Assembly (NCBI RefSeq): GCF_008369915.1
Contig: NZ_VSRN01000001.1
Span: forward strand, 1,612,001-1,676,000
Direction of reading: 5' to 3'
Origin: Dyadobacter sp. UC 10
Lineage (GTDB): Bacteria > Bacteroidota > Bacteroidia > Cytophagales > Spirosomataceae
Length of the DNA: 64,000 nt
Positions 24,671 through 33,171 of the stretch are shown here, in pieces. A program made the position numbers and the translations under genes. Numbering within the stretch: position 1 is the first letter of the stretch; the number at the start of each line of letters is the position of its first letter. A model generated the notes under the pieces. It worked only from the letters and a program-made list of their open reading frames with translations. It had not been told where the DNA came from and made no database searches.

Positions 24671-25009
24671 ATGGAAACTATCACCTGGCCGGATTTCGAG
24701 AAAGTAAACCTGGTTGCCGGAACGATCATCGAGGTCGCCGACTTCCCCAAAGCCAGAAAACCCGCATTTAAATTAAAAATTGACCTCGGTCCTGAAATTG
24801 GTATTAAAGCCAGCTCGGCACAGATCACCAAACTTTACTCACAGGAAGAACTGCTCGGCAAACAGGTTCTATGCGTCACCAATTTCCCGCCGAAACAAAT
24901 TGCTGATTTCAGATCAGAGGTACTTACAACCGGTTTCGTCCTGCCCGACGGAGAAGTAATACTTGCAAGTCCTGATTTCGAAGTGCCCAACGGAACACGG
25001 CTGGCCTGA
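24671..25009 (+). CDS. csaA: CsaA-like tRNA-binding OB-fold protein
   Basis: A 112-aa protein consisting of a single EMAP/Trbp111-type OB fold. The N-terminal [19 protein letters not shown], the [29 protein letters not shown] core and the [22 protein letters not shown] segment match CsaA, a secretion-linked chaperone in Bacillus that also binds tRNA. The conserved KxSSAQ is present. It is a single gene between the lactonase and the copper island, and ends 18 bp before the candidate copper operator. Confidence 0.88.
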
Positions 25010-25027
25010 TAATGATGCAATGTGCAG

Positions 25028-25071
25028 CCATAATTGTGTAATCCGCCCCGAACCGGCTGGGTTTATCTTTG
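25028..25071 (+). promoter_or_regulatory. copA promoter with candidate copper operator
   Basis: A 15-bp motif, CCATAATTGTGTAAT (25028-25042), lies 21 bp upstream of a perfect -7 box TATCTTTG (25064-25071). The same motif with one change (CCATAATTCTGTAAT) lies 20 bp upstream of the -7-like box of the downstream metallochaperone gene. The bases after both -7 boxes also agree (TTTGTAAAAG). This is likely the binding site of the regulator of this island. Confidence 0.45.
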
Positions 25072-25090
25072 TAAAAGCAAGAATAAGACT

Positions 25091-27319
25091 ATGGACACAG
25101 CAACAGAAATACATAAAATAACACTTCCAGTGACGGGCATGTCGTGCGCAGCTTGTGCCGTGAGCGTAGAAAGTATGCTTAAAAGCACAGCCGGAGTTGA
25201 AGACGCCGGGGTAAACTACGCCAACCAATCTGTCTCGATCGGCTTTGACCCCGGGACAGTCAGCCTGCAGCAGCTTGACGAGGTATTGCAAGGCATCGGC
25301 TACGGGCTGATTATTGAAAATGATGAAGATGACGCGCTTGCGGAGCAGGAGAAGCTTCAAAATGAGCATTACGCCGCATTGAAAAACAAAACCATTCGTG
25401 CAGGAGCCCTGACTATTCCGGTAGTCATACTGGGCATGTTTTTCATGGATATGGCTTATGCGAACTACATCATGCTCACGCTTACCATTCCCGTATTGTT
25501 CATTTTCGGCCGGGATTTTTATGTGAATGCCTGGAAACAGGCAAAGCACCGGAAAGCAAATATGGACACGCTGGTGGCACTTAGTACGGGTGTCGCATTC
25601 CTTTTCAGCACTTTCAATACATTTTATCCGCAATTCTGGCACGAAAGAGGGTTACATCCACACGTTTATTTTGAAGCTGCTGCGGTAATCGTCTTTTTTA
25701 TCCTTTTGGGCAAATTGCTGGAAGAACGCGCCAAGACGAAGACTTCCGGCGCATTGAAAAAATTGATCGGCCTGCAACCCAAAACCGTTCACGTTATCCG
25801 CAACGGCTCTGAGATAGAAACTAACGTAAGAGATGTGCTGGCCGGAGACGAAATCATTATTCGCGCCGGCGAAAAAATCCCGGTTGACGGAAAAGTACTG
25901 TCAGGCAATTCTTTCGTTGATGAAAGCCTGATGACGGGCGAGCCGATTCCGACGGAAAAAATAATGGGCAGCAACGTTTTTGCGGGTACCATCAATCAAA
26001 ATGGCAGCTTTACTTTTAAAGCAGAGAAAGTCGGCAAGCAAACTGTACTGGCTCAAATCATTAAAACCGTGCAGGAAGCGCAGGGAAGCAAGGCGCCTGT
26101 CCAAAGGCTGGTAGATAAAATCGCAGGTATTTTTGTGCCTGTGGTAATAGGGATAGCATTTCTGACATTGGTTGTCTGGATTTTTGCTGGCGGAGAAAAT
26201 GCATTGACGCACGGTTTGATGGCCGCCGTTTCGGTGCTTGTGATCGCCTGTCCCTGTGCGCTTGGCCTGGCAACGCCTACTGCGATGATGGTTGGAGTCG
26301 GGAAAGGTGCAGAAAATAACATTTTGATCCGCGATGCAGAAAGTCTCGAAAAAGCATACCGGGTAAATGCGGTTGTTCTGGACAAAACAGGTACCCTTAC
26401 CCTCGGCCAGCCGGCTGTGACAGAATGGATCTGGAAAACGCAGAGTATAGATCAGGAAAAGCACTTATCGGCTATAAAAGCATTGGAATCGCGTTCCGAA
26501 CATCCCCTGGCAAAGGCTATTGTAAATTTCATCAGTACTTCTCCAGAAGCATCTGTAACAAAATTCGCGTCAGTTACCGGCAGCGGGATACGCGGCGAGG
26601 TAAGCGAAATCGAGTACCTGATCGGCACGCTCACTTTTCTTAAAGCGGAAGAAGTGCAGATCAGTGACGAGCTGGCTCGGGAAGTAAGGATATTATCGGA
26701 GCAAGCGAAAACCGTAATCGCAGTCGCGGCTGATCGCCAGGTTATCGCGCTGGTTTCCATTGCGGACGCCCTCAAACCAACATCTTCGGAAGCAGTAGCG
26801 CAACTTAAAAGGCAGGGCATCGAGGTGTATATGCTCACCGGCGACAACCTGCAGACTGCTGCTGCGGTCGCGAAACAAACGGGCATTGATTCGTACCGGG
26901 CGGAAGTAAAACCGGGCGACAAGATGCAGTTTATCAGTGAATTACAATCAAAGGGAAAAGTTGTGGCGATGGTCGGCGACGGCATTAACGATTCGCAGGC
27001 ATTGGCCCAGGCCGACGTGAGCATTGCGATGGGAAAAGGATCGGACATAGCAATGGACGTGGCGAAAATGACGCTCATTACTTCCGATCTGCTTGTATTG
27101 CCGAAAGCTTTGAAATTATCCCGAAAAACAGTGGCTACAATCCGACAAAACCTGTTTTGGGCATTTATCTACAATATCATCGGCATTCCCGTCGCAGCAG
27201 GGGTTCTATATCCATTCAACGGTTTTCTGCTCGACCCAATGATCGCAGGTGGCGCAATGGCGCTGAGCTCGGTATCGGTGGTGATGAATAGCCTGCGGCT
27301 GAAAAGTGCCGGGTTGTAA
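25091..27319 (+). CDS. copA: Copper-exporting P1B-type ATPase
   Basis: Pumps Cu(I) out of the cytoplasm using ATP. I start at the ATG at 25091 (MDTATEIHKITLPVTGMSCAACAVSV); the open frame from 25034 begins with TTG and covers the promoter. One N-terminal HMA domain has Cys19 and Cys22. Membrane helices frame the TGE motif (MTGEPIP), the ion-binding CPC in VIACPCALGLATP (about 387), DKTGTLT (about 430, phosphorylated Asp), the HP motif in SEHPLAKA and GDGINDSQAL. At 742 aa it has normal length. It heads a cluster of copper-related genes. Confidence 0.95.
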   Translation: MDTATEIHKITLPVTGMSCAACAVSVESMLKSTAGVEDAGVNYANQSVSIGFDPGTVSLQQLDEVLQGIGYGLIIENDEDDALAEQEKLQNEHYAALKNKTIRAGALTIPVVILGMFFMDMAYANYIMLTLTIPVLFIFGRDFYVNAWKQAKHRKANMDTLVALSTGVAFLFSTFNTFYPQFWHERGLHPHVYFEAAAVIVFFILLGKLLEERAKTKTSGALKKLIGLQPKTVHVIRNGSEIETNVRDVLAGDEIIIRAGEKIPVDGKVLSGNSFVDESLMTGEPIPTEKIMGSNVFAGTINQNGSFTFKAEKVGKQTVLAQIIKTVQEAQGSKAPVQRLVDKIAGIFVPVVIGIAFLTLVVWIFAGGENALTHGLMAAVSVLVIACPCALGLATPTAMMVGVGKGAENNILIRDAESLEKAYRVNAVVLDKTGTLTLGQPAVTEWIWKTQSIDQEKHLSAIKALESRSEHPLAKAIVNFISTSPEASVTKFASVTGSGIRGEVSEIEYLIGTLTFLKAEEVQISDELAREVRILSEQAKTVIAVAADRQVIALVSIADALKPTSSEAVAQLKRQGIEVYMLTGDNLQTAAAVAKQTGIDSYRAEVKPGDKMQFISELQSKGKVVAMVGDGINDSQALAQADVSIAMGKGSDIAMDVAKMTLITSDLLVLPKALKLSRKTVATIRQNLFWAFIYNIIGIPVAAGVLYPFNGFLLDPMIAGGAMALSSVSVVMNSLRLKSAGL

Positions 27320-27349
27320 GCTTCGTTCCCAAAACTCTGTAACGCCCTC

Positions 27350-27392
27350 CCATAATTCTGTAATAACCGGAGAACTGTGTTGCCGATATTTG
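27350..27392 (+). promoter_or_regulatory. Promoter of the metallochaperone gene with the shared motif
   Basis: CCATAATTCTGTAAT (27350-27364) matches the copA motif at 14 of 15 bases and is 20 bp from a -7-like box GATATTTG (27385-27392, one mismatch). A partial direct repeat, CTCTGTAACG, lies just upstream at about 27336. Confidence 0.42.
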
Positions 27393-27438: not shown

Positions 27439-27648
27439 ATGGAAACGCTCAAATTCAAAACAAATATTAAATGTGGGGGCTGCGTGGCAACCGTCACTCC
27501 TTTTCTCAATGGCGATGAAAATGTATCGGACTGGAAGGTAGACCTTGAAAGTGCCGACAGGATATTGAATGTAAAAACCACTCATTCAGCCAGCGAAATA
27601 GAACAACTCATCAAAAAGGCCGGGTACTCTGCCGAAGAACTAGCCTGA
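27439..27648 (+). CDS. HMA-domain metallochaperone (CopZ-like)
   Basis: A 69-aa soluble protein that is a single heavy-metal-associated domain. The metal site is NIKCGGCVATV (Cys12, Cys15), a CxxC with Gly-Gly between the cysteines, and the rest follows the beta-alpha-beta-beta-alpha-beta pattern (WKVDLESADRILNVKTT, IEQLIKKAGYSAEEL). It probably carries Cu(I) to the upstream CopA. It has its own promoter-like region containing the same motif found before copA. Confidence 0.9.
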   Translation: METLKFKTNIKCGGCVATVTPFLNGDENVSDWKVDLESADRILNVKTTHSASEIEQLIKKAGYSAEELA

Positions 27649-27722: not shown

Positions 27723-28178
27723 ATGAAAAACAAATTGCACCGATCGATCACCGCCTTAATGGCATTTCTGATACTGTTTAGCAGTACCGGATTTGCATTG
27801 GTGGAGCATCAATGTATGATGCGGGGGAAATCGGTGCAGTTACTGGCCGCCAAGAAAACTGATGCTGACAAGAACTCCGGTTCGTGCTGTTCGAAGAAAA
27901 AAGAGGTTAAGGAAAGCAAAGGCACTTATTTCAAAAAGACAGCCTGCTGCAAAGAGAACCATACTTTTGAAAAGCTAAATGTAGCAACTGGCAGTCCCCA
28001 GTCTTCGGGCAAGATCATCAAAGCGTGGCCGGCAGATATTGTTTGGTTTACTACTTCCTATTCATTTATCCGGGCAGAATGGACCCTTCCAGAGCTCCCC
28101 TATCTTACTGACATATCCTTTTCTTCCCGGTTGTACGGGACAGGTATGCGGTTATTTATTCAGTCATTTCTAATTTGA
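27723..28178 (+). CDS. HYC_CC_PP-type exported Cys-rich protein
   Basis: A 151-aa protein with a signal peptide or N-terminal anchor (about 1-27) and the pattern that names its Bacteroidota family: a His-x-Cys (EHQCMM), a CC pair (SCCSKKKE), a second CC (TACCKENHTF), and a Pro-containing hydrophobic C terminus (LPELPYLTD). The clustered Cys and His residues suggest metal binding in the periplasm. It lies between the metallochaperone and a TonB-dependent receptor, a common neighbourhood for this family. Function is not established. Confidence 0.78.
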   Translation: MKNKLHRSITALMAFLILFSSTGFALVEHQCMMRGKSVQLLAAKKTDADKNSGSCCSKKKEVKESKGTYFKKTACCKENHTFEKLNVATGSPQSSGKIIKAWPADIVWFTTSYSFIRAEWTLPELPYLTDISFSSRLYGTGMRLFIQSFLI

Positions 28179-28259: not shown

Positions 28260-30482
28260 ATGAAAACCTATTTGGCAGCATTACTCTGTCTGCTCACTAT
28301 TTCCGCCTCGGCCCAGCGTATTACCGGCTCCGTGAACGAGCAGGTACCCAATTCCACCCGGCTGAGCCCGATTTCCGGCGCAAACGTATATTGGGCCGGC
28401 ACTACTCAGGCCGCCTCAACGGACACATCGGGACGCTTCATTATTCCGAGATCCGCACAGTCCAATCTTTTAGTAGTCACTTTTGTGGGCTTCAAAAATG
28501 ATACGATTAAAGTAACCGGAGAAAGCGAATTGCAGGTTGTTTTACAAAATGACCAGACGCTAGACGAAGTTACAGTACGTAGCGGCGCGGGCAGCATCGA
28601 CAGACTTTCCCCGCATCAAACCGAAATCATTACTACCCGTGCACTTGCGAAAGCGGCGTGTTGTAACCTTTCCGAAAGTTTTGAAACCAATGCATCCATT
28701 TCCGTTTCTTACAGCGATGCAGTGACAGGCTCTAAGCAAATTCAAATGCTTGGATTGAGTGGTACCTATATTCAAACCAGTGTAGAAAACATTCCTTCGC
28801 TGCGGGGGCTCGCCTCTACTTTCGGGCTCAATTTCATTCCCGGAACGTGGGTTCAGTCCATTGATATCGGTAAAGGCGCAGGTTCTGTGGTAAACGGATA
28901 TGAGTCGATGACGGGGCAGATCAATGTGGAGCTGCAAAAACCCGATACCGAGGAAAAGCTCTACCTGAATACCTACGTCAATAATTTTGGCCGGGCAGAG
29001 CTAAACCTGAACCTCGCGCACCAGATCAACAAAAAATGGAGTACCAGCCTCCTGACCCATGGCAGTACGCTGAAAAACAGGATCGACAAGAACGGCGACA
29101 ATTTTCTGGACCTGCCGCTTTACAGCCAGATCAATGCGATCAACCGCTGGAAATATCAGGACGAAAAATGGATGGCGCAGTTTGGCGTGAAAGCGCTGGC
29201 AGAAGATAGAATGGGTGGCCAGCAGGATTTCAAACGCGAAATGCGGGGAAGTACAGATGTTTATGGTTTCGGTGCAAAAATCAACCGTTATGAGTTTTTC
29301 TCAAAGATTGCACGACTATTTCCCGAGCAGCCTTACAAAGGGCTGGGCCTGATCGTAAATGCTTCCGTTCACGATTCAAAGTCCTATTTTGGAGTAAATA
29401 ATTATGATGGAAAGCAAAAAACGATTTACGCAAACCTGATCTATCAATCCATTATCGGCAATACCAATCACGCTTACAAAACAGGATTGAGCTATTTGCT
29501 TGACAATTATGATGAACGTTATCGCAATCTTTCCCTGGTAAGGAACGAGTCGGTGCCGGGTGCGTTTTTCGAATACACTTACAATAATCTTGACAAGTTT
29601 GTGCTTGTCGCTGGCGGCCGGGTTGACTTCCATAATCTTTACGGAACGCAATGGACGCCGCGCCTGCATTTGAAATATAGTCTGACCGATCAGACTACCC
29701 TGCGCGCGTCGGTCGGCACAGGTTTCCGGGTTTCCAATCCGCTGGCTGAATATTACGGCAATCTGGTCAGCTCGCGGGAAGTGTTTTTCAGAGAACCAAT
29801 CAGGCCGGAAAAAAGCTGGAATTACGGTGCAAGTTTAACGCAGGATTTCACAATAGGCGATATGAAGGGAAATCTGATCGTGGATTACTATCGGACCAAT
29901 TTTGAAAATCAGCTGGTAGCCGACCTTGAAGACCCGCGATTCATTCGCTTCTACAACCTCGAAGGAAAAGCATTTGCCAATAGTTTTCAGTCGGAAGTGA
30001 ATCTGACGCCGATTAAGCGCTTCGAGCTGAAACTTGCGTATCGTTTGTTTGACGTGAAGCAATCGATCCGGAATCTGTACGACCAGAATGTGCTGCTTCC
30101 AAGGATGATGGTCAGCCGCGACCGGGTTTTGTTCAACGCCGGTTATGCATTGCCGTACGATAAATGGAAGTTTGATTTTACGGTTCAATGGAATGGTAAA
30201 AAGCGCATTCCTTACATGGGCAGCGTTCCCGACCATCATGTGCCAGATAACCTGAATTCGACTATTGCTCCTTCATTCTACAATCTGAATGCACAGATCA
30301 CCCGGACTTTTCCTAAATGGGATGTATACCTGGGCGGCGAAAATCTGGCGAATTTCCGTCAAAAAAACCCAATCATAGGCGCAGACCAACCCTTTGGCGA
30401 GCATTTTGACGCGGGAATGGCCTGGGGTCCGGTAGTAGGGCGAATGATTTACGCCGGGTTGCGTTATAAGATTATCCGGTAA
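28260..30482 (+). CDS. TonB-dependent receptor with carboxypeptidase-like plug extension
   Basis: Outer-membrane receptor of 740 aa. The ATG at 28260 gives a signal peptide (MKTYLAALLCLLTISASAQ); the frame from 28245 starts with TTG. A CarboxypepD_reg-like domain (about 22-105, GANVYWAGTTQAASTDTSGRFIIP) precedes the plug (LDEVTVRS, ACCNLSESFETNASISVSYSDAVTGSKQIQMLGLSG) and a 22-strand-type barrel ending in AGLRYKIIR. The CC within the plug is notable given the copper neighbours. It probably imports or senses a metal complex; the ligand is inferred from context only. Confidence 0.88.
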   Translation: MKTYLAALLCLLTISASAQRITGSVNEQVPNSTRLSPISGANVYWAGTTQAASTDTSGRFIIPRSAQSNLLVVTFVGFKNDTIKVTGESELQVVLQNDQTLDEVTVRSGAGSIDRLSPHQTEIITTRALAKAACCNLSESFETNASISVSYSDAVTGSKQIQMLGLSGTYIQTSVENIPSLRGLASTFGLNFIPGTWVQSIDIGKGAGSVVNGYESMTGQINVELQKPDTEEKLYLNTYVNNFGRAELNLNLAHQINKKWSTSLLTHGSTLKNRIDKNGDNFLDLPLYSQINAINRWKYQDEKWMAQFGVKALAEDRMGGQQDFKREMRGSTDVYGFGAKINRYEFFSKIARLFPEQPYKGLGLIVNASVHDSKSYFGVNNYDGKQKTIYANLIYQSIIGNTNHAYKTGLSYLLDNYDERYRNLSLVRNESVPGAFFEYTYNNLDKFVLVAGGRVDFHNLYGTQWTPRLHLKYSLTDQTTLRASVGTGFRVSNPLAEYYGNLVSSREVFFREPIRPEKSWNYGASLTQDFTIGDMKGNLIVDYYRTNFENQLVADLEDPRFIRFYNLEGKAFANSFQSEVNLTPIKRFELKLAYRLFDVKQSIRNLYDQNVLLPRMMVSRDRVLFNAGYALPYDKWKFDFTVQWNGKKRIPYMGSVPDHHVPDNLNSTIAPSFYNLNAQITRTFPKWDVYLGGENLANFRQKNPIIGADQPFGEHFDAGMAWGPVVGRMIYAGLRYKIIR

Positions 30483-30517: not shown

Positions 30518-31087
30518 ATGAAGTTATATATTAAAAATATGGTTTGCGACCGCTGTAAGCGGGTCGTTCGGGAAGAATTGACTGGGCTGGGGCTTGAACT
30601 TTTGTCAGTCGGACTGGGTGAGGTGGAGACCGTCGGGGAAATAGAGGCGCAAAAACTGACGGAAGTCAGGGCTGTGCTGGAAAGCAATGGTTTTGAACTG
30701 CTCGACGATCGCAGACTTGCACTGGTAGAGCATATGAAAACATTGATCATTGAGGAAATCCAAAACCTGAAAGGTCAGAAACCTTCACAAATGAATTTTT
30801 CAGATTTTTTATCCGAGAAAATGGGCTACGAATATTCCTACCTCAGCACCCTGTTCTCTTCCGAAACCGGGCAGACCATTGAGCAATACATTATCGCCCA
30901 AAAAGTGGAAAAGCTGAAAGAATGGCTTTCATATAATGAACTCACTTTGAGCGAAATGGCCTGGCGACTTTCTTATAGCAGCACCGCGCATTTAAGTAAT
31001 CAGTTTAAAAAAGTAACCGGCATGACGCCGGGGGAATTTAAGAAAAGTGCGATGACCAGAAAGACGCTAGACGCGATTGGAAACTGA
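30518..31087 (+). CDS. AraC-family regulator with N-terminal HMA-like metal domain
   Basis: A 189-aa fusion. The first 65 residues look like a heavy-metal-associated fold with Cys10 and Cys13 in NMVCDRCKRVV; the C-terminal half (about 85-180) is an AraC/XylS helix-turn-helix domain (LTLSEMAWRLSYSSTAHLSNQFKKVTGMTPGEFKK). This suggests a one-component copper sensor. It lies in the middle of the copper island, in the same direction as its neighbours. It is the best candidate for binding the 15-bp motif upstream of copA and the metallochaperone gene, though this is inference. Confidence 0.85.
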   Translation: MKLYIKNMVCDRCKRVVREELTGLGLELLSVGLGEVETVGEIEAQKLTEVRAVLESNGFELLDDRRLALVEHMKTLIIEEIQNLKGQKPSQMNFSDFLSEKMGYEYSYLSTLFSSETGQTIEQYIIAQKVEKLKEWLSYNELTLSEMAWRLSYSSTAHLSNQFKKVTGMTPGEFKKSAMTRKTLDAIGN

Positions 31088-31134
31088 TATTTACCTGAAT
31101 TATGGTGCAAGTATTAATAGATCAAACCTTCAAT

Positions 31135-31374
31135 ATGATAACAAAAGCACTTTTAGCCGTAACCCTTTTTCTGATATTCGGCTGCTCCGGAAATTCTGAA
31201 CAAACGAAGGAGCAAACGACGGAAGTTAAGTCAACCCAAGTTGCTGCATATAGCTGTCCAATGCAATGTGAAGGTGACAAAACCTATTCTGACAGCGGCA
31301 AATGTCCGGTTTGCAAAATGGAGTTACAGGAAGTGGCGTTCCAGGGCGCAGACTCCGTAAAACACCAGCATTAA
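31135..31374 (+). CDS. Small lipoprotein with heavy-metal-binding domain
   Basis: Using the ATG at 31135 the product has 79 aa. It opens with a lipoprotein signal (MITKALLAVTLFLIFGC, lipobox Cys17), followed by a Thr/Glu-rich linker and a metal-binding module with YSCPMQCEGDKTYSDSGKCPVC and a final HQH. The CPM...CPVCKM layout is that of the small heavy-metal-binding domain found in Cu/Ag efflux proteins. It likely binds copper on the periplasmic face of a membrane. The longer frame from 31102 would spoil the signal peptide. Confidence 0.82.
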   Translation: MITKALLAVTLFLIFGCSGNSEQTKEQTTEVKSTQVAAYSCPMQCEGDKTYSDSGKCPVCKMELQEVAFQGADSVKHQH

Positions 31375-31400: not shown

Positions 31401-31745
31401 ATGAAAACAACCATTCTTTCACTGATTACGATCCTGTTCTTAGGGATCAATACAGTATTTGCCTCGGGGGAGGACAGGGAGGTAAAAATAAAGACTTCGG
31501 CTGTGTGCGAAATGTGCAAAGCGCGCATTGAGCGCAATCTCGGACTTTCAAAAGGCGTGAAAGGATCCAATTTAAACCTTGACGATAAGGTAATTACAGT
31601 TAAATACAACCCGAACAAAACCACGCCTGAGGCAATCAAAGCGACGATCATAAATACTGGTTACGACGCTGATAACCAGCTCGCAAACCAGAAAGCGCAC
31701 GATAAACTTCCAAGCTGCTGCCGCAAAACCGCCGCACCGCATTAA
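31401..31745 (+). CDS. Exported HMA-domain protein
   Basis: A 114-aa protein: signal peptide (about 1-22, ending VFAS) then an HMA fold with a CxxC in SAVCEMCKARIERNLG. The C-terminal tail adds a CC pair and a His (LPSCCRKTAAPH), giving further metal ligands. It is likely a periplasmic copper carrier, complementing the cytoplasmic carrier at 27439. It starts 26 bp after the small lipoprotein gene and 19 bp before the His/Met-rich barrel gene, so the three are probably one transcript. Confidence 0.87.
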   Translation: MKTTILSLITILFLGINTVFASGEDREVKIKTSAVCEMCKARIERNLGLSKGVKGSNLNLDDKVITVKYNPNKTTPEAIKATIINTGYDADNQLANQKAHDKLPSCCRKTAAPH

Positions 31746-31764: not shown

Positions 31765-33171
31765 ATGGAATATAACAAACTAAGAAACCTGGCCATTCTC
31801 GGTCTGGGAATGGCCGCTTTTCCTGTACTAGGACAGCACGAGCACCATCAGCAGCCCGCAAAGGATACCACAAACCATGAAATGCACGAAAAAAAGGCAG
31901 ATCATGGCGGGATGGACCATAGCAAAATGCAGCACGGTGAAATGCAGCCCGCGCACCTAATGACGCATAGCTTTTCGCTCACTCTGCCGATGACGCGCAA
32001 CGGATCGGGTACCGGCTGGCAGCCCGACGCCACGCCGATGTACGCTTACATGAAGCATAGTGACAAATGGAACTACATGCTGCACGGGAGCATTTTCCTG
32101 CGCTATACTTCCCAAAATTTTAACAATAAAAATAAGAAAGGGGCCGACGCAAAATTCAGCGCGCCAAACTGGGTAATGGGTATGGCCCAGCGCCAGGTAG
32201 GTAAAAACGGGCTGCTGAACCTGCGGGCGATGGTTTCGGTAGACAAGCTTGTCGACGGAGGCGCAGGATACCCGCTGCTTTTTCAATCTGGCGAGAGCTG
32301 GAACAATGTCCCACTAGTCGATCGCCAGCATCCTCACGACCTCATTTCCGAACTTTCTGTGGCTTATACGCAGCGGATCAATGAAAAACTGGACCTGACA
32401 ATTTACGCGGGATACCCGGGCGAGCCCGCACTCGGCCCGACCGCATTTATGCACCGGATGTCTGCATTCAACAACCCTGACGCGGTTTTGGGCCACCATT
32501 GGCAAGATGCCACACACATTACATTTGGCGTGGTAACTGCGGGAGTGCGTTACGGGATGTTCAAGCTGGAAGGATCTTCCTTTACCGGGCGCGAGCCTGA
32601 TGAAAACCGGTTCGATTTCGACAAACCGCGTTTCGATTCTTACAGTTACCGCCTGCTGTTTAATCCTTCTGCAAACTTTGCTTTTCAGGCCAGCCGGGCA
32701 TTTATCAAAAGTCCCGAGCGGCTGCATGCACACGACGATGTGACCCGCACTACCGCCTCCGTGCAGCACAGCGCGCAGCTGGGTGGCGAGAACAAATGGA
32801 TTTCGTCGACGGTGCTTTGGGGCCAGAACTCCGGTAGCCACAAAGGGAATTCCTATCTCGCAGAGTCGAATCTGCAACTTAATAAATGGGCGGTTTATGG
32901 CCGGTTTGAAAACGTTCAGAAAAGTTTTAATGATTTATTAGAGGCAGGAAGTGATATTCCGGAGTATTCAACCAAAGAGTCGATCTCCGCATTTACCCTG
33001 GGCATTAACAGGCAGCTTTTCTCTTTTGCAAATACGCTGGTCCAGGCTGGCGGGCAGGTCAGCTATCACCATGTTAAAGAAAGCAATTCCTATTTCAGGA
33101 ATGCTTATGGCAAAAATCCGATGTCAGGCCAGGTATATCTGCGGCTTACTCCCGGTTTGATGAAAATGTAG
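31765..33171 (+). CDS. Predicted outer-membrane barrel with His/Met-rich N terminus
   Basis: A 468-aa exported protein. After a signal peptide (about 1-23) the mature N terminus is strikingly rich in His and Met (GQHEHHQQPAK, NHEMHEKKADHGGMDHSKMQ), a typical copper-binding composition. The remainder alternates in a beta-barrel fashion (LTIYAGYPGEP, ASVQHSAQLGGENKW) up to a terminal VYLRLTPGLMKM. Last gene of the copper island. It may bind or export copper at the outer membrane; no named family is certain. Confidence 0.75.
   Translation: MEYNKLRNLAILGLGMAAFPVLGQHEHHQQPAKDTTNHEMHEKKADHGGMDHSKMQHGEMQPAHLMTHSFSLTLPMTRNGSGTGWQPDATPMYAYMKHSDKWNYMLHGSIFLRYTSQNFNNKNKKGADAKFSAPNWVMGMAQRQVGKNGLLNLRAMVSVDKLVDGGAGYPLLFQSGESWNNVPLVDRQHPHDLISELSVAYTQRINEKLDLTIYAGYPGEPALGPTAFMHRMSAFNNPDAVLGHHWQDATHITFGVVTAGVRYGMFKLEGSSFTGREPDENRFDFDKPRFDSYSYRLLFNPSANFAFQASRAFIKSPERLHAHDDVTRTTASVQHSAQLGGENKWISSTVLWGQNSGSHKGNSYLAESNLQLNKWAVYGRFENVQKSFNDLLEAGSDIPEYSTKESISAFTLGINRQLFSFANTLVQAGGQVSYHHVKESNSYFRNAYGKNPMSGQVYLRLTPGLMKM

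Follow-up and report, generated by a model that had tools for sequence, protein, structure and literature searches.

A conserved tandem repeat before copper genes of Dyadobacter and a predicted Cu(I)-sensing regulator with HMA-like and AraC-type domains

The copper locus of Dyadobacter sp. UC 10 carries a direct repeat, with 21 bp between the starts of its two halves, before copA and again before the gene of a small CopZ-like chaperone. This operator is very probably read by HMA-AraC, a protein encoded in the same locus that would act as a Cu(I)-sensing and self-amplifying activator from a class II position. The repeat, its spacing, its conservation, the copper genes behind it and its linkage to the HMA-AraC gene can be read from sequence comparison. 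We infer binding by HMA-AraC, its dimerisation, Cu(I) as the metal, activation rather than repression, and co-transcription of the genes in its row. The window, i.e. the whole stretch of DNA that was analysed, comprises 64,000 nucleotides and is numbered from its first letter.

Structure of the operator

An earlier note on this DNA had pointed out a 15-bp motif shared by the regions upstream of copA and the metallochaperone gene. The motif is present as CCATAATTGTGTAAT at 25028-25042 before copA and as CCATAATTCTGTAAT at 27350-27364 before the gene of a 69-aa HMA protein (HMA69). The exact pattern CCATAATTSTGTAAT, with G or C allowed as the ninth base, has these two copies as its only matches in the 6.9 Mb genome, where the N version of the pattern read backwards has none. 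The gaps of 21 and 20 bp to the -7 boxes agree with the coordinates, and the bases after both boxes in the window read TTTGTAAAAG, as had been claimed. Both copies of the 15-mer are thus real, but they constitute only the promoter-proximal half of an operator whose distal copies had been missed. A second copy in the same direction is found 21 bp upstream of each motif, and the unit is therefore a tandem direct repeat. The elements of the two promoters are as follows.

25007-25020, forward strand: copA operator, distal half-site TGATAATGATGCAA, degenerate; aligned with relatives, 21 bp upstream of the proximal half
25028-25041, forward strand: copA operator, proximal half-site CCATAATTGTGTAA; motif search and alignment with relatives
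25064-25071, forward strand: copA promoter, -7 box TATCTTTG; fits TANNTTTG, 22 bp past the proximal half-site, as in relatives
27329-27342, forward strand: second operator, distal half-site CCAAAACTCTGTAA; motif search and alignment with relatives
27350-27363, forward strand: second operator, proximal half-site CCATAATTCTGTAA; motif search and alignment with relatives
27385-27392, forward strand: second promoter, -7 box GATATTTG; read in the sequence

Before copA, the distal half-site and the stop codon of the preceding gene overlap; that gene encodes a protein with a tRNA-binding domain. In general form the operator approximates CMAAAATNNTGTAA-N7-CMWAATTSTGTAA. Its halves start 21 bp apart, and a -7 box of the form TANNTTTG or GANNTTTG comes 21-22 bp after the proximal one. 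A scan of 41 sequences (the window and 40 loci), using a half-site consensus picked by eye from the upstream regions of relatives, gave 27 same-direction pairs at 21 bp compared with 0, 1, 2 and 0 pairs at 19, 20, 22 and 23 bp. When 19 promoters were aligned (alignment A1), both halves and the TTTG of the box were found to hold invariant bases, and the spacers had diverged. A wider consensus TTTGTAAAAG after the box was rejected because TTTG alone is invariant among the aligned relatives.

Loose matching of the 15-mer was dropped as uninformative. With up to 3 mismatches it gave 4 matches in the window against 3.6 expected, which is no better than chance, and with up to 2 mismatches it gave 23 matches in the genome against 25 for the backward control.

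Conservation of the tandem site

Searches were made with a sequence-only profile of alignment A1 (R1) and with a control built from the same promoters written backwards (R2). In the window's genome R1 finds the two sites at E 1.3e-13 and 2.8e-12, and the next match is at 0.22. Among 101 genomes of the family R1 gives 91 matches at E < 0.001, that is, the 19 training sites and 72 new ones, compared with no match below 0.001 for R2 in the same genomes (best 0.0027). A spacing of 21 bp is seen in 67 of the 72 new sites, which is not independent evidence because the profile itself was built from 21-bp sites. For the box GATATTTG it can be added that 20 of 67 -7 boxes at new sites start with GA. 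A sample of 296 genomes of the phylum has R1 matches at E <= 0.01 in 67, including three from the family of the window.

Conservation upstream of copA orthologues, which the earlier note had proposed as a check, exists at the level of the tandem profile only; the exact 15-mer is absent from the six genomes of the same genus. The tandem site precedes copA in all 14 close genomes (the window's and L054-L066, seven from the genus and seven from outside it), and nine of these are training sites. For 40 more distant genomes, the search covered 600 bp of DNA before the best copA match of each. A tandem site was found in 27 of them, in every case on the copA strand and in one (L216) about 440 bp upstream; 13 copA genes had no detectable site, and R2 found none before copA in any of the 40. 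A further 11 genomes have a new match before copA that was already known from the scan, and these are not counted as a rate because they were selected. The copA count covers 65 of the 67 genomes with a copA match at E <= 1e-240, G066 and G019 being left out.

Of 13 relatives, 11 have a site before the HMA69 gene, and nine of these 11 sites belong to the training set. No such site was found in L059 and L061, which belong to one genus, though their copA keeps a strong one.

Genes behind the sites

The two operators of the window are followed by these genes.

25091-27319, forward strand: copA, copper-translocating P-type ATPase with one HMA domain; Pfam E1-E2_ATPase and HMA, TIGR01511 609.8 bits (cut-off 397)
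27439-27648, forward strand: 69-aa HMA protein (HMA69), CopZ-like chaperone; Pfam HMA 25.2 bits, barely above the cut-off of 24.8
27723-28178, forward strand: secreted protein of the HYC_CC_PP family; NCBIfam NF047658, score equal to the cut-off
28260-30482, forward strand: TonB-dependent receptor, probably of the same operon; Pfam
30518-31087, forward strand: HMA-AraC regulator with an MVCxRC HMA-like N-terminus and an AraC helix-turn-helix (HTH) C-terminus, proposed activator; profile and model
31102-31374, forward strand: HMBD protein, probably of the same operon
31401-31745, forward strand: HMA protein, probably of the same operon
31765-33171, forward strand: 468-aa His/Met-rich protein, probably of the same operon; no Pfam or NCBIfam family match

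Four HMA matches are found in the whole genome (G000). Three belong to this locus, and one of the three scores below the cut-off. The HYC_CC_PP protein accompanies copper sites across the family, and the His/Met-rich protein recurs in the HMA-AraC loci of many relatives.

Copper genes are also frequent behind the new sites. The first open reading frame encodes an HMA protein in 25 and a P-type ATPase in 14 of 70 loci, a tally in which two of the 72 loci had no frame picked and the frame picked is not always the true first gene (e.g. L125, L163, L185). First frames also encode MauE (10), DUF3347 (3), DUF326 (2), TonB receptors (2) and a multicopper oxidase (1). Cupins, YtxH, a response regulator and others are on the list as well, and part of the new matches precedes non-copper genes. 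In G051, G087 and G003 new matches precede a copA that lies outside the HMA-AraC locus. In L116 the site precedes the gene of a cysteine-rich protein, after which comes a gene that resembles one for a multicopper oxidase, and in L120 the site precedes another protein of that kind.

The HMA-AraC regulator and its linkage to the sites

HMA-AraC is a protein of 189 amino acids. Its C-terminal part is an AraC-type HTH (Pfam HTH_18, 63.4 bits), as in regulators of the AraC/XylS family. Pfam HMA is not reported for it at E 0.001. The motif MVCxRC is nevertheless invariant in all 36 orthologues, and a profile built from these matches CopZ chains at E about 3e-4 as well as AraC-type domains. The copper chaperones of the CopZ/Atx1 kind that are matched are PDB entries 2qif, 1k0v and 6ff2. 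ATP7B is matched at E 3e-7 for the whole chain with no single stretch passing, and none of the chains listed in this search is matched in both parts. An AlphaFold model (pLDDT 86) predicts a beta-alpha-beta-beta-alpha-beta domain followed by the HTH. With its predicted ferredoxin-like fold and the conserved CxxC, the N-terminal domain would be of the HMA type. Foldseek ranks AraC-type domains first (the DNA-binding domains of AdpA, MarA and AraC), and copper chaperones appear weakly at E 0.15 and above.

The nearest named relatives of the protein are from Dyadobacter, with 90% identity. Its genome holds no second full-length HMA-AraC; the 25 other AraC-type HTH matches there start at position 60 or later.

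A full-length HMA-AraC gene is found within 4 kb of 24 of the 72 new sites. In a search that started from the regulator, 80 named HMA-AraC loci (1.0 Mb) hold 63 R1 matches at E <= 0.1 compared with none for R2. This set is not independent, because at least five of its Dyadobacter loci are from training genomes (L265, L275, L279, L280, L284) and because L291, L300 and L313 repeat, by sequence, genomes of the phylum sample. All but one (L288) of the 24 named Dyadobacter loci have a match, as do 30 of the 56 named loci from elsewhere, the other 26 having none. Those with a site include Mucilaginibacter, Flavihumibacter, Sinomicrobium, Cyclobacteriaceae, Ignavibacteriae and a Chlorobi bin. The site starts at most 250 bp past the regulator gene in 19 of the 30, the end of the gene being taken as about 7060 in most named loci, and the next open reading frame encodes an HMA protein in 24 of the 30 and a P-type ATPase in 11. 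Twelve of the 29 loci kept from the phylum sample hold a full-length HMA-AraC.

Regulators without the CxxC motif

Some relatives of HMA-AraC lack the CxxC. Nine of them in the tree, seven with MVSxRC and two without a recognisable motif, form one branch (support 97/86) inside that of the CxxC proteins; the very long branch of row L183 stands out from the same tree as an outlier. Six new sites of the family adjoin MVSxRC regulators (L148-L151, L155, L161), and their first open reading frames are not recognisable copper genes. Similar sites without linkage precede a YtxH protein and, judged by sequence, cupin-like proteins. In the MVSxRC locus L344 the next frame is cupin-like, in a tally that does not name the members.

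Where the linked regulator is Cys-less, 4 of 6 sites have a distal half-site of the TGTG type, compared with 0 of 18 where it has the CxxC (Fisher p 0.0014, the rows being related to each other; L149 and L161 share one regulator). A paired change of regulator and site is what would be expected if the HMA-AraC proteins read these sites. MVSxRC paralogues with similar tandem sites and genes that do not resemble copper genes were seen in L148, L149, L150, L151, L155, L161, L238 and L344. They possibly represent a change of signal within a family of metal sensors.

Mode of action

In the proposed mechanism HMA-AraC (30518-31087) would bind the operator with one subunit per half-site, on the same face of the DNA and two helical turns apart. 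The CxxC of the HMA domain would take up Cu(I), either directly or from the CopZ-like chaperone, and the loaded protein would then bind both halves through its AraC domain or make contact with RNA polymerase. Activation would proceed from the class II position, with the proximal half ending beside the -33 region. The targets in this genome would be copA, for export, and the row of HMA69, HYC_CC_PP protein, TonB receptor, HMA-AraC, HMBD protein, HMA protein and 468-aa protein. Because the HMA-AraC gene lies inside its own target row, the regulator would amplify its own synthesis.

The position of the operator is consistent with activation. When the -7 element is taken as -12 to -5 (PMC6847099), the distal half spans by arithmetic about -69 to -56 and the proximal half about -48 to -35, the predicted class II position, and the proximal half adjoins the -35/-33 region. 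That proximity might also suit a repressor, and computation does not give the sign of the effect. HMA-AraC might in that case block the promoter as apo-protein and be released by Cu(I). We regard such repression as unlikely, since both halves are upstream of the -7 box and keep a single phase relative to it: the TTTG box follows the proximal half after 21 or 22 bp in 19 of 19 aligned training sites and in 65 of the 72 new sites, where the profile favours such a distance. The same upstream layout is described for the activating arrangement of AraC at araI1-araI2 (PMC4760080).

A TTG at -33 is found at 0 of 67 sites compared with 47 of 234 other TANNTTTG boxes. This was at first sight an argument for dependence on an activator and is now taken as weak support, because the fixed half-site fills part of the space, the boxes used for comparison are not established promoters, and the -33 motif is described as barely evident in F. 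johnsoniae (PMC6847099).

The sites might instead be read by another regulator, e.g. a response regulator or a second AraC protein, with HMA-AraC as a mere neighbour. In favour of this, 48 of the 72 new sites have no HMA-AraC within 4 kb, some of these loci ending at contig ends, and the genome has the 25 other AraC-type HTH matches. Other families of the phylum show the linkage too, however, both in the phylum loci and in the named loci outside Dyadobacter, and the site and HMA-AraC change together. CsoR (PF02583) has no match in the window's genome (6 of 14 control genomes were positive), and the three MerR_1 matches of the genome are far from the locus, none of them in the window. A copper activator of the CueR/MerR kind, which would be encoded near its targets and use a dyad operator within the promoter spacer, was rejected because of the position of the MerR_1 matches and because the tandem repeat here runs in one direction and lies before the spacer. 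A response-regulator site of the OmpR type was rejected as well; such sites are direct repeats about 10-11 bp apart, and the conserved spacing here is 21 bp. Another reader is slightly less probable than repression, and improbable in itself.

It is very improbable that an alternative sigma factor uses the motif as a variant -33 element. The fixed distance to the -7 box would agree with such an element, but the box belongs to the usual sigma-A type (PMC6847099, PMC9723704), the motif is present twice, 21 bp apart, and many of the targets are copper genes. An accidental likeness or the recent duplication of a single promoter, which the chance frequency of loose matches in window and genome might suggest, can be dismissed as hardly credible on the control searches, since the tandem site is kept in dozens of genomes with diverged spacers and the backward control is empty at the same thresholds.

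Activation by HMA-AraC is thus the reading best in line with these data. The earlier note had seen in the motif the position of an activator site and a fit to the HMA-AraC gene downstream, and both suggestions are supported; the link to HMA-AraC is drawn from the gene linkage, from the presence of a single full-length HMA-AraC and from the parallel change of regulator and site.

Comparison with known regulators

CueR, CsoR and CopY control copA-type exporters and CopZ-type chaperones, the same kind of targets as those predicted for HMA-AraC. They have other DNA-binding folds than HMA-AraC, and their operators are dyad-symmetric. The CopZ/Atx1 chaperones have an HMA-type CxxC domain in common with HMA-AraC, in which it is fused to a DNA-binding domain.

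The AraC-type hybrid two-component systems (HTCS) of B. thetaiotaomicron, in the same phylum, are described with predicted tandem direct repeats and an average of 21 bp between sites (PMC3878776). The likeness to HMA-AraC lies in the AraC-type DNA-binding domain and the spacing of about 21 bp. HTCS proteins are sensor kinases for glycans, whereas HMA-AraC, a one-component protein, has a CopZ-like domain and copper genes as its predicted targets. Two neighbouring half-sites are also described for AraC at araI1-araI2 of E. coli araBAD, where the proximal half-site recruits RNA polymerase and activation depends on the ligand (PMC4760080), as it would for HMA-AraC. AraC differs in its sugar-binding domain, its other type of promoter and an extra looping site (PMC4760080); the comparison covers the promoter half-sites.

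Neither a regulator or motif of this description nor a one-component copper sensor for Bacteroidota was found in open-licence PubMed Central papers. On balance we favour the view that HMA-AraC and its 21-bp tandem operator form an undescribed class of one-component copper sensors, which might have the role of CsoR or CueR in Bacteroidota, Ignavibacteria and Chlorobi. As part of this view, one clade would have lost the first metal cysteine (MVCxRC to MVSxRC), shifted its distal half-site towards TGTGAAT and been rewired to other, partly stress-type genes, a label that is our own reading of such families. The analysis yields a named regulator candidate, an exact operator and a predicted regulon for copper sensing in Bacteroidota. 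A clade that keeps the DNA-reading part and loses a metal ligand would amount to a natural experiment in the repurposing of a sensor.

Observations in other genera

Fusions of HMA and MauE, recognised by sequence, are often first after the site in other genera (L124, L126, L131, L133, L134), and further cases are L136, L138, L152, L170 and L178. In L163 and L185, from two genera (G013 and G024), the sites and the 95-codon frame that follows are nearly identical, which suggests transfer of a copper island.
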